The notes beneath the pieces were generated by a model, which had not been told where the DNA came from, did no database searches, and saw only the letters and a program-made list of their open reading frames with translations. A stretch of 64,000 bases of DNA from Amycolatopsis jiangsuensis (GTDB taxonomy: Bacteria > Actinomycetota > Actinomycetes > Mycobacteriales > Pseudonocardiaceae): the NCBI RefSeq assembly GCF_014204865.1, contig NZ_JACHMG010000001.1, positions 806,001-870,000 of the forward strand, in the 5' to 3' direction. Below, in pieces: positions 4,850 through 8,027 of the stretch (positions are counted from its first letter, which is position 1; each line of letters begins with the position of its first letter). The position numbers and the translations under genes were made by a program.

Positions 4850-4950
4850 CTTCGTGACGAGAGGCGCTGCAGCGGCGGGGCTCGTGACGAGAGGCGCTGC
4901 GTGGCAAGCCTCTTGACGAGAGGCGTTGTCGCGGCGAGGCTCGTGCCGCG
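4850..4950. repeat. Degenerate ~30-bp tandem repeat
   Basis: Three units of 29-31 bp, each opening with CTCGTGACGAGAGGCGCTGC or a close variant, start at 4850, 4881 and 4910, and a decayed fourth begins at 4940. The tails of the units diverge (AGCGGCGGGG, GTGGCAAGC, GCGGCGAGG). The array is intergenic and begins 25 bp after the small Cys-rich gene. Unit length varies and there are no unique spacers, so it is not a CRISPR. No coding frame makes sense. Confidence 0.75.
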
Positions 4951-5200: not shown

Positions 5201-6661
5201 TCAGTAGCGGTAGTGGTCCAGTTTGTACGGGCCGTCCACGTCCACCCCCAGGTACTCCGCCTGCGGCTTGCTCAGCCGGGTCAGCCGGGCGCCGACCGCG
5301 GCCAGGTGCAGCCGCGCGACCTTCTCGTCCAGGTGCTTGGGCAGTCGGTGCACGTCGACCGGGTACTGTCCGGGTTTGGTGAACAGCTCGATCTGCGCCA
5401 GCACCTGGTTGGCGAACGAAGCGGACATCACGAACGACGGATGTCCGGTGGCGTTGCCGAGGTTCATCAGCCTTCCCTCGGACAGCACGATGACCGCGTG
5501 CCCGTCCGGGAAGAGCCATTCGTGCACCTGCGGTTTGATCGTTGACTTCCGCACGCCGGGCACCTTCGCGAGCCCTGCCATGTCGATCTCGTTGTCGAAG
5601 TGCCCGACGTTGGCGACGATCGCGTTGTGCTTCATGCGGGCCATCTGTGCGGCCGACACGATGCCGAAACCGCCGGTCGTGGTGAGGAACAGGTCGCCGC
5701 GGTCGACGACGTCGTCGAGTTCCACCACGTCGAGCCCGTCCATCGCGGCCTGCAGCGCGCAGATCGGATCGATCTCGGTGACCACCACGCGCGCGCCCTG
5801 TCCGCGCAGTGCCGCCACCGCGCCCTTCCCGACGTCGCCGTAGCCGCACACGACCGCGAGTTTGCCGCCGATCATCACGTCCGTGGCGCGGTTGATCCCG
5901 TCCACCATGGAATGCCGGATGCCGTAGCGGTTGTCGAATTTGGACTTCGTGACCGAGTCGTTCACGTTCATCGCGGGGAAGCGCAACGCACCCTGCCGGG
6001 CGAGCTGGTAGAGCCGTTTGCCGCCGTTGGTGGTTTCCTCGGTGACCCCCCGGATCTCTTCGGCGATGCGGGTGAACCGCTGCGGATCTTCGGCCAGGCT
6101 CGCCGCGAGCGTACGCAGGAGGATCCGGTGCTCCTCCGGATCGTCTTCTCCCGGCTGCGGAACCGCTCCCGCCGCCTCGTACTCCGCTCCTTTGTGGACG
6201 AGCAGAGTGGCGTCGCCGCCGTCGTCGAGGATCATGTTCGGCCCCCGGCCGCCGGGGAAGCGGAACAGGTGATCGGTGCACCACCAGTAGTCGTCCAGTG
6301 TTTCGCCTTTCCAGGCGAAGACGGCGGAACCGGCCGGGTGCGCGGCGGTCCCGTCCGGGCCGGCCACCACCGCGGCCGCCGCCTCGTCCTGGGTGGAGAA
6401 GATGTTGCAGGACACCCAGCGCACCTCGGCGCCGAGGGCCACCAGCGTTTCGATCAGCACGGCGGTCTGCACCGTCATGTGCAGGGAGCCGGCGATCCGG
6501 GCGCCGCGCAACGGTTTCGCCTCGGCGAATTCCCGGCGGATCGCCATCAGTCCGGGCATCTCGTGTTCGGCCAGGCGCAGCTGGGTGCGTCCGGCCGCGG
6601 CCAGCGACAGATCGGCGACGGCGAATTCGAGCTCGCCTGCGGTCTGCGGTTTCGGGCTCAT
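5201..6661 (-). CDS. ahcY: Adenosylhomocysteinase (SAH hydrolase)
   Basis: 486 residues. It reversibly cleaves S-adenosylhomocysteine to adenosine and homocysteine in the activated methyl cycle, relieving product inhibition of methyltransferases, as an NAD-bound cytosolic tetramer. The sequence shows [20 protein letters not shown] at the start, the substrate region [15 protein letters not shown], the NAD-binding motif CGYGDVGKG and the family's C-terminal LDHYRY ending that reaches into the neighbouring subunit. ATG 6661 is chosen because GGAAAGGA lies about 9 nt upstream; longer in-frame extensions would run through the riboswitch leader. It is a single-gene unit, apparently controlled by the SAH-responsive leader described separately. 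Confidence 0.97.
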
Positions 6662-6742
6662 CGAAGTGGTCCTTTCCGGTTCCATCAGGGTGCACAGGAG
6701 GGCAGGAGGCCAGGTGGAATCGCGGAAAACCACGAGCGGCAC

Positions 6743-6771
6743 AAGAAAAGCGCCTCCTTGGCAGGAGGCGC
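6743..6771 (-). terminator. Intrinsic terminator in the ahcY leader (expression platform)
   Basis: Read on the minus strand: GCGCCTCCT (6771-6763), loop GCCA (6762-6759), AGGAGGCGC (6758-6750), then TTTTCTT (6749-6743). This is a perfect 9-bp GC-rich stem with a U-rich tail, about 80 nt before the ahcY start. Its 5' arm begins with GCGCCT, the same bases that would pair with AGGCGC of the upstream aptamer. The two structures therefore exclude each other. Confidence 0.85.
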
Positions 6772-6837
6772 CCTTGGCTCGGAAGCCCGCGGGCCGAGCG
6801 TGGCGGGAACGCGTCCCGTCGCAGCGCCTCTCGGCTC
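6765..6837 (-). promoter_or_regulatory. Putative SAH riboswitch aptamer upstream of ahcY
   Basis: Reading the minus strand from 6837: GCCGAG (6835-6830) pairs with CTCGGC (6798-6793) as P1. It is followed by AGGCGCTGCGA (6829-6819), the near-invariant core of SAH riboswitches. A P2 hairpin is CGGGA/TCCCG around CGCGT. CCACGCTCGG then resembles the conserved CCAGGCUCG. A small hairpin GGCT-TCCG-AGCC follows, and GCGCCT (6771-6766) completes a pseudoknot with AGGCGC. Family knowledge: SAH riboswitches sit upstream of ahcY and switch it on when SAH accumulates. The match was made by eye against the remembered consensus, and one conserved G is a C here. Confidence 0.75.
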
Positions 6838-6867
6838 GCGGTCGCGCCGCATCGGACGCGTCGAGTC

Positions 6868-6897
6868 ACCTTGGCAACCGGCGGGCGGAGCTGTCAA
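6868..6897 (-). promoter_or_regulatory. ahcY promoter
   Basis: A perfect -35 hexamer TTGACA (6897-6892) and, after 18 bp, CAAGGT (6873-6868), an acceptable actinobacterial -10. Transcription would begin near 6860 and include the whole aptamer. The -35 overlaps the stop codon of the upstream dinB-like gene (6894-6896). Confidence 0.6.
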
Positions 6898-7928
6898 GCG
6901 TCCGGGTCGCGGCGGAACTCGGCCCGCACCCCGAGCAGCCGCACCGGTCTGCCGAGCGGGAAGCGGCCGAGCAGGTCTCGCGCGGCACGCTCGAGTACCG
7001 CCGGATCCGAGGACGGTTCGGACAGCGTGACGCTGTGCGTCTGGGTGAAGAACGGGGCGAACCGGACCTTCACCGCCACCCGCGCCACCGGGCGCGCCTC
7101 CTCGGCGACGTCCTGGGCGACCCGGGCGGCGAGCACGCCGATCTCGGCCGCGATCCGATCCGGCTCGGTGAGGTCCTGCTGATAGGTCGTCTCCCGGCCG
7201 CGAGATCGCGCGACGTACGGTGTCGCGCTCACCTCGGTGTCGCCGATGCCGCCGGCGAGCAGCCGGTACCACGGGCCCAGCCGCGGCCCGAACCGCGCGG
7301 CGAGCGCCTCCGGATCGGCCGCGGCGAGGTCGAGGACGGTGGGACAGCCGGCTTCGCGCAGCTTCTTCGCGGTCTTGCGGCCGATGCCCTGCAACGCGTC
7401 CGGGGTCCGCGCGGCCATCACGTCCCACCAGTTCTCGCGGGTCAGCCGGAAGACCCCGGCGGGTTTGGCGAATCCGGTGGCGAGCTTGGCGCGCAGCTTG
7501 TTGTCCCCGATCCCGACCGACGCGGACAGGCCGGTCTCCTCGGCGATCCCGCGCCGGACCTGGTCGGCCAGCGCCTCCGGATCAGCGGTGTCGGCGCCGA
7601 GGAACGCCTCGTCCCAGCCGAGGACCTCGACCACGACCGGGAATTCCCGCACCCGCGTCATCACCCGGTCTGAAACCTCTTGGTAGGCGGGCGCGTCGAC
7701 CGGGAGCAGCACCGCCTCCGGACACCGCTTCACGGCCAGCCGCAACGGCATCCCGGAGTCGACGCCGAACGCGCGTGCCTCGTAGGACGCGGTCGCCACG
7801 ACTGCGCGTTCGGCCGGATCCCCGTTGCCGCCGACGATCACCGGCAGTCCCCGCAGCCGCGGATGCCGGGCCACTTCGACCGCCGCGATGAACTGATCGA
7901 GATCGACGTGCAGGATCCAGGCGGACAC
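6894..7928 (-). CDS. Y-family DNA polymerase IV, DinB2-like
   Basis: 344 residues, a translesion polymerase that lacks proofreading. The N-terminus WILHVDLDQFIAAVE holds the metal-binding Asp9 and Asp11; the catalytic acidic pair is in GWDEAFLGAD; palm, thumb (GIGRKTAKKLREAG) and little-finger regions are all present. The DLDQF and GWDEA spellings match mycobacterial DinB2 better than DinB1 or E. coli DinB (DMDxFF, SIDEA). The steric-gate position is Ile14, where most family members carry Phe or Tyr. GTG 7928 is chosen by N-terminal alignment; no strong ribosome site is visible and an in-frame extension to 8018 cannot be excluded. No mutasome partner genes are adjacent. Confidence 0.9.
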   Translation of the reverse strand: MSAWILHVDLDQFIAAVEVARHPRLRGLPVIVGGNGDPAERAVVATASYEARAFGVDSGMPLRLAVKRCPEAVLLPVDAPAYQEVSDRVMTRVREFPVVVEVLGWDEAFLGADTADPEALADQVRRGIAEETGLSASVGIGDNKLRAKLATGFAKPAGVFRLTRENWWDVMAARTPDALQGIGRKTAKKLREAGCPTVLDLAAADPEALAARFGPRLGPWYRLLAGGIGDTEVSATPYVARSRGRETTYQQDLTEPDRIAAEIGVLAARVAQDVAEEARPVARVAVKVRFAPFFTQTHSVTLSEPSSDPAVLERAARDLLGRFPLGRPVRLLGVRAEFRRDPDA

Positions 7929-8027
7929 CCCACCAGTGTGCGGCGCCTGCGGTGGTGTCCGCACCCCGGAACTTCGCGGCGGCCGGGTGCGATCGTGCGC
8001 CGCCGGAAGCCTCCGCACGGCGGGAGT

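Follow-up and report, generated by a model that had tools for sequence, protein, structure and literature searches.

The window, by which the whole stretch of 64,000 nucleotides analysed here is meant, comes from Amycolatopsis jiangsuensis, a member of a genus known for its antibiotic producers. On its minus strand, ahcY (S-adenosylhomocysteine hydrolase) is preceded by a leader (6897-6743) that contains a TTGACA hexamer, a match to the Rfam family of S-adenosylhomocysteine (SAH) riboswitches (RF01057) and a 9-bp hairpin with TTTTCTT, and the gene begins 81 nt further on. The following features were distinguished in this region:

6894-8018, minus strand: upstream gene for a Y-family DNA polymerase (dinB-like; PF00817 (IMS), PF11799)
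6892-6897, minus strand: -35 hexamer TTGACA, read from the sequence and sharing letters with the stop codon of the dinB-like gene (6896-6894)
6868-6873, minus strand: putative -10 box CAAGGT at a spacing of 18; the box pattern is kept in 45 of 49 ahcY copies of the genus, and the first base departs from TANNNT
6830-6835, minus strand: 5' strand of aptamer helix P1, GCCGAG (RF01057 alignment, covariation in relatives)
6793-6798, minus strand: 3' strand of P1, CTCGGC (RF01057 alignment, covariation in relatives)
6829-6819, minus strand: aptamer core AGGCGCTGCGA, read from the sequence
6824-6829, minus strand: 5' strand of the pseudoknot, AGGCGC (covariation)
6819-6823, minus strand: core TGCGA (TGCAA in metH copies)
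6804-6818, minus strand: aptamer hairpin P2, CGGGA-loop-TCCCG (RF01057 alignment, covariation)
6766-6771, minus strand: switch strand GCGCCT, 3' strand of the pseudoknot and base of the 5' arm of the predicted terminator (sequence, covariation, folding)
6750-6771, minus strand: predicted terminator hairpin of 9 bp with the loop GCCA
6743-6749, minus strand: U tract of the predicted terminator, TTTTCTT, read from the sequence
6740-6742, minus strand: alternative in-frame GTG start (513-aa product), 10 nt after the GGAGG of the terminator arm
6670-6677, minus strand: Shine-Dalgarno-like GGAAAGGA, not part of the switch, 8 nt before ATG 6661 of ahcY
5201-6661, minus strand: ahcY, 486 aa from ATG 6661 (PF05221, PF00670)

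Leader layout and predicted switching

Within the leader, GCGCCU (6771-6766) can pair either with AGGCGC of the aptamer or with the 3' arm of the hairpin, the two pairings being mutually exclusive, as in a transcriptional ON switch based on strand sharing. Since this strand is common to the pseudoknot and the terminator, SAH is expected to block termination and activate ahcY. In the mechanism proposed, bound SAH would hold GCGCCU in the pseudoknot with AGGCGC, the terminator hairpin would be blocked, and transcription would continue into ahcY; in the absence of SAH, the partner of GCGCCUCCU would be the downstream AGGAGGCGC, and RNA polymerase would halt at UUUUCUU. The initial annotation had described the TTGACA, an aptamer with its core and P1 GCCGAG/CTCGGC, and a 9-bp terminator with TTTTCTT, all of which were recovered on the minus strand where it had placed them; its claim that GCGCCT serves both the pseudoknot and the 5' arm of the terminator agrees with the membership of 6771-6766 in both pairings, and the ON logic that it proposed is supported in so far as it follows from this shared strand.

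The hairpin is G+C-rich and directly followed by the U tract, and is predicted to be a terminator; folded together with its tail (-19.5 kcal/mol, z -5.25), it was more stable than any of 200 shuffled sequences. A simple promoter and terminator scanner run on 6500-7200 called neither a promoter nor a terminator. CAAGGT has 2 of the 6 letters of TATAAT and the rule of the scanner demands 4, and we read the missed terminator as the result of an extension of the stem into the T run, by which the tail was lost. The 67-nt aptamer part was no more stable than shuffled sequences (z 0.94) in single-strand folding, in which pseudoknots are not possible; because the aptamer fold needs its pseudoknot, this calculation is uninformative on that part.

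By eye, an additional G+C-rich inverted repeat, weak in the window, lies between the -10 box and P1 (6867-6836, minus strand), and a repeat of this kind was also seen at the same place in the ahcY leaders L110, L111, L114, L128, L145, L152 and L176, the transcripts of which might begin with another hairpin. Elsewhere in the window, about three tandem units of 30 bases (4852-4945, plus strand) stand in the interval from ahcY to a gene that looks Ku-like by eye. The unit shares CGAGAGGCGCTGC with the aptamer; a 13-base piece of the repeat matches the genome exactly at two positions, which both lie in the repeat, and the likeness was taken as unrelated.

RF01057 match, distribution and covariation

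The RF01057 match extends from 6838 to 6759 on the minus strand, covers positions 1-78 of 78 and scores 32.7 bits, with an E-value of 2.3e-4 in a search of the 501-base leader against all 4227 Rfam families and of 8.9e-4 in a search of the whole genome with RF01057. The window copy falls below the curated cut-off of the family (gathering score 37), and a default Rfam scan of the window returned nothing above cut-off. It resembles the family in P1, P2, the pseudoknot, the core nucleotides, the full length of the match and the genes concerned (ahcY and metH), and differs from it in the sub-cut-off score and in two pseudoknot pairs, which are A-U/G-C in the window and G-C/A-U in the consensus. 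The blanks of the alignment sit on the pseudoknot (GAGCGC/GCGCUC in the Rfam consensus, AGGCGC/GCGCCU in the window), and in our reading the low score is partly explained because these two double-changed pairs count as mismatches in a model without the pseudoknot. Relatives before ahcY that have the hairpin and T tract exceed the cut-off (42.9 bits in L015, 39.6 in L029 and 39.5 in L032).

The window site is the second-best match in the genome, after a site before metH; the third-best, at 22.5 bits (G000:C1:508494), falls within a frame of 496 aa, a sugar kinase by eye, and was dropped as chance. In 14 control genomes, matches were obtained in 10 genomes at E 10, in 4 at E 1 and in none at E 0.05 or E 0.01, and none of these searches gave a match over the cut-off. 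Among 60 Amycolatopsis genomes, 57 had a match at E 1 or better (weak ones only in G032), and 35 had some site over the cut-off. When the fetched sites were sorted by downstream gene, metH sites were counted in 54 of the 60 genomes and ahcY sites in 48, the latter making up 49 loci (two in G037; the one in G033 of insertion type); in 7 further genomes an insertion separates the switch from ahcY, and no ahcY site was found in five (G011, G013, G032, G053, G055). The aptamer adjoins both genes in 46 of the 60.

On a broader scale, 93 of the 150 family genomes sampled (E 0.05) and 59 of the 394 sampled from the class (E 0.01) had matches. The wider set used below is a biased sample, being composed of the best-scoring sites only of the family and class searches (29 new loci each). 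L003-L008, which are weak genome matches, and L061, L096, L174 and L175, which did not fit the core pattern, were left out before counting; 166 of 170 sites were kept on the core pattern, and 53 of the 166 after removal of near-duplicates. L018 was omitted solely from the tallies of start distance and trigger recurrence.

For covariation, the 53 non-redundant actinobacterial sites, including that of the window, were aligned with MAFFT, and the structure was drawn by hand from the Rfam layout. Across the three helices, 95.0% of the cells pair, as against 23.6-42.7% for slid versions; changes on both sides occur at 11 of 21 pairs, and none of 500 shuffles reached any of the five measures, these counts being of sequences and not of events, and the shuffle controls leaving relatedness in. 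The cells are paired to 91.6% in P1 (double changes at 5 of 9 pairs), to 95.0% in P2 (4 of 6) and to 100% in the pseudoknot, where 2 of 6 pairs show compensatory changes, from G-C to A-U and from C-G to U-A (A-U in L060 and L063; U-A in L070, L079, L087 and L095). The two computational checks suggested at the outset were a search with the covariance model, which gave a significant RF01057 score, even though this copy stays below 37, and a comparison of related leaders for compensatory changes, which showed double changes, those of the pseudoknot included. By sequence and covariation the element appears to be an SAH riboswitch, for which antitermination of ahcY is the best inference.

Expression platforms of the ahcY and metH copies

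The second aptamer of the genome (G000:C1:2066273-2066355, minus strand; L001 1501-1583) scores 36.8 bits and lies directly before metH (PF02574, PF00809), so that one site adjoins ahcY (PF05221) and the other metH. The metH leader reads GCGCCTCC-14 nt-GGAGG-TGGC-ATG, in which the GGAGG facing GCGCCTCC, four bases before ATG, is the predicted Shine-Dalgarno sequence, and no T tract is present. This copy is predicted to act on translation and not on termination: SAH would free the ribosome-binding site GGAGG faced by GCGCCTCC. One aptamer and one trigger are thereby predicted to serve two outputs, termination for ahcY and translation for metH, and the two sites together would convert a build-up of SAH into more SAH removal and more homocysteine remethylation.

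An arm complementary to the trigger, with at least 4 pairs, was found in each of the 166 sites examined, a tally that covers, among the insertion-type and wider rows outside ahcY and metH, the 7 insertion sites. What follows this arm differs between the two genes. In the genus, at least 5 T in an 8-base window near the arm were counted in 46 of 49 ahcY copies (L010, L031 and L118 have 4 T each) versus 0 of 54 metH copies, and the same level is reached in 1.1% of the windows at least 60 nt downstream in the same ahcY leaders. The figures for the wider set are 2 of 9 ahcY copies and 2 of 44 metH copies, so the T tract is not the rule outside the genus. Every one of the 54 genus metH copies, and 43 of the 44 wider ones, has an in-frame start 4-8 nt after GGAGG; the aligned ahcY start lies at least 53 nt beyond the GGAGG arm in 48 of 49 genus copies (5 nt in L016). 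The contrast in T-rich tail and start distance argues for a terminator at ahcY and for sequestration of the Shine-Dalgarno sequence at metH.

The ahcY switch might nevertheless be translational too, with GTG 6742 as the start and the GGAGG of the hairpin 3' arm as a Shine-Dalgarno sequence freed by SAH. A 513-aa frame is indeed open from this GTG, 10 nt after GGAGG, and an in-frame start 7-8 nt after GGAGG precedes ahcY in one Amycolatopsis genome (L016) and, elsewhere in the family, in L044, L046, L058 and L065 from other genera, L207-L209 and L213 being similar by eye. The spacing of 10 nt, however, exceeds the 4-8 nt of the metH copies, and an in-frame start conserved at 4-8 nt was not found for ahcY; even between 4 and 12 nt such a start occurs in 9 genus ahcY copies (8 of these at 10-11 nt) and is absent from the other 40 of the 49. 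With, in addition, the separate GGAAAGGA 8 nt before ATG 6661 and the T tract kept in 46 of 49 copies, we consider a translational ahcY switch unlikely.

A promoter-like pair accompanies the aptamer before ahcY. Of the 49 genus ahcY copies, 47 have TTGACA ahead of the aptamer and 45 have the pattern TTGACA-N18-C[AT]NNNT; the pattern is likewise present in 7 of 7 insertion-type sites and absent from all 54 metH copies, many of which have, by eye, a TANNNT-like box shortly before P1. In L118 (G001), the AhcY of which is the most similar among those compared (92% over the part covered) and whose tail has 4 T, no TTGACA was found in the 105 nt of upstream sequence examined. These data also bear on a rival view, in which the dinB-like gene simply ends in a conventional terminator that needs no ligand, and the likeness to an aptamer is a relic. 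In its favour, this gene shares the strand of the hairpin and stops about 120 nt before it, at 6894, and 7 insertion-type genomes keep the aptamer without a T tract, so an aptamer can outlast its platform. Against such a relic stand the covariation of the pseudoknot across sites with differing downstream platforms, the TTGACA ahead of the aptamer in most genus ahcY copies (here after the dinB-like gene) and the recurrence of the same trigger before metH, in view of which we regard it as very improbable.

It is thus highly probable, in our judgement, that the leader 6897-6743 (minus strand) is an SAH riboswitch that turns ahcY on by antitermination. The aptamer match, the exclusive pairings, the hairpin with its T tract, the covariation and the conserved promoter-like pair are observed in sequence and computation, and from them we infer SAH as the ligand, promoter activity, termination and its release. 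Points against it are the sub-cut-off score, the weak -10 box, the lack of a scanner call, the tail and missing TTGACA of L118, the folding result for the aptamer and the GTG at 6742.

The two sets of copies also differ in the core, where GCGCTGC is followed by GA in 49 of 49 genus ahcY copies and by AA in 54 of 54 genus metH copies (in the wider set, by GA in 4, AA in 3 and AG in 2 of 9 ahcY copies, and by AA in 41 and GA in 3 of 44 metH copies). A ligand other than SAH, for example another adenosyl compound, could be read from the G before ahcY and the A before metH. Rfam, however, scores G at this variable letter positively (+ sign in the alignment), and the downstream genes, SAH hydrolase and methionine synthase, are targets of proteobacterial SAH switches in the excerpted account of PMC4239095; a different ligand seems to us extremely improbable. 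The A/G difference itself may be neutral, because the ahcY and metH sets are separate lineages.

AhcY paralogues, known systems and further loci

The genome has a second ahcY (G000:C1:6543954-6545393, L198), the product of which is 70% identical to the AhcY under the switch. No RF01057 match was found near it at E 10 in the genome search, its 330 nt of upstream sequence have no such element by eye, and its locus gave no Rfam match over the cut-off; the switch is detected before one of the two ahcY paralogues only. All 14 genomes searched, most of them picked because they lack an adjacent ahcY site, had a copy like the second ahcY (67-72% identical), which in G011 and G055 is represented by fragments.

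In a tree of AhcY starts with 137 rows (L061 excluded), all switch-bearing rows fall in one branch of 62 rows, with a support of 92/87 and an unsettled bootstrap, and the branch of the second paralogue is separate from it. The switch-bearing branch also has five rows without a detected switch (L186, L187, L256, L259, L280). Among 80 named loci, 7 carry the switch by sequence pattern: L204 and L205 (Amycolatopsis), L206 (Herbihabitans), L207 (Dactylosporangium), L208 (Pseudosporangium), L209 (Jidongwangia) and L213 (Actinoplanes). Rfam placed L208 over the cut-off and L204, L205, L209 and L213 just under it at E 0.01, and gave no match at E 0.01 for L206 and L207. Leaders of both the Shine-Dalgarno and the terminator type occur in the switch-bearing branch, and by eye a T-rich stretch lies between GGAGG and a start codon in L016, L058, L206 and L213. 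A change from one platform to the other is therefore plausible; the tree gives no order. A fuller proposal, which we find possible though on balance slightly doubtful, is that the invariant trigger GCGCCUCC and its partner GGAGG serve the two outputs, that the ahcY2 lineage was converted from translational to transcriptional control when a U tract arose downstream of GGAGG and ahead of the start (L016 and L213, as intermediates, have both), and that the copies were tuned apart by the fixed A/G of the core.

In L187 (G013), an ahcY2 without a detected switch lies directly after a frame that by eye ends like the activation domain of MetH, an arrangement reminiscent of a metH-ahcY2 operon.

The likely SAH ON riboswitch described here is placed in Amycolatopsis, where the ahcY and metH copies offer a natural comparison of how the same aptamer can be coupled to transcription in one gene and to translation in another. 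The ahcY2 leaders of other genera look like steps between these two couplings, so that changes of a few bases would put the evolution of expression platforms to the test. One bacterium used for comparison, Dechloromonas aromatica, is a betaproteobacterium. Its metH SAH switch was, in the part of the review PMC5621056 drawn on, the start of the transcriptional ON design of Ceres et al. 2013, and natural ON switches are described there as overlapping aptamer and terminator. That switch is likewise SAH-responsive and ON but concerns metH, whereas in Amycolatopsis it is ahcY that has the terminator type, and metH has a copy of the Shine-Dalgarno type. SAH riboswitches are most abundant in beta- and gamma-Proteobacteria and have also been identified in Mycobacteriaceae (extracts of PMC3766115), that is, the same RNA family in the same phylum; L087 and L095, from another family of the same order, are metH sites of the Shine-Dalgarno type. 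In the extracts of PMC4239095, which covers 199 genomes of Proteobacteria only, ahcY and metF are core targets, metH is a target in Comamonadaceae, and usually one or two operons are regulated per genome; ahcY as a core target, metH as a target and the one or two operons agree with the present case, and metF as a further core target is the difference.

The initial annotation had held that the class is best documented in Proteobacteria and that a transcriptional version in an actinomycete would be worth recording. The class was already known from Mycobacteriaceae (PMC3766115, in extract) and transcriptional ON use from a proteobacterial switch (PMC5621056, in extract); the copy before metH and the second ahcY, which has no detected switch, were outside the view of that annotation. 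Novelty is therefore limited and the surprise modest, the riboswitch class being known and the two-output arrangement the interesting part; in the passages of the open-licence papers searched, no description was found of an SAH switch in Amycolatopsis or of the two-platform pair. Nor was a MOSC N-terminal gene met there as a target of an SAH switch. In L039 (G199, 51.0 bits) and L043 (G121, 45.5 bits), the SAH aptamer lies directly before such a gene, identified by domain scan in L039.

Insertion-type loci have the switch about 900 nt before ahcY and were found in G010, G012, G024, G026, G033, G041, G047 and G057 and in A. orientalis (L205). The insertion has a class I methyltransferase frame on the opposite strand in 7 of 9 loci (in L183 and L184 a different frame was picked by the script). 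The methyltransferase between switch and ahcY was located at 1552-2500 of L204, the one locus searched with Pfam, and further loci with this insertion are L031, L110, L126, L127, L134, L143, L144, L148 and L205. All 7 insertion sites counted have the promoter-like pair and the hairpin, and none of them has the T tract. At insertion loci, a long frame also runs from a GTG just after GGAGG, antisense to the methyltransferase.
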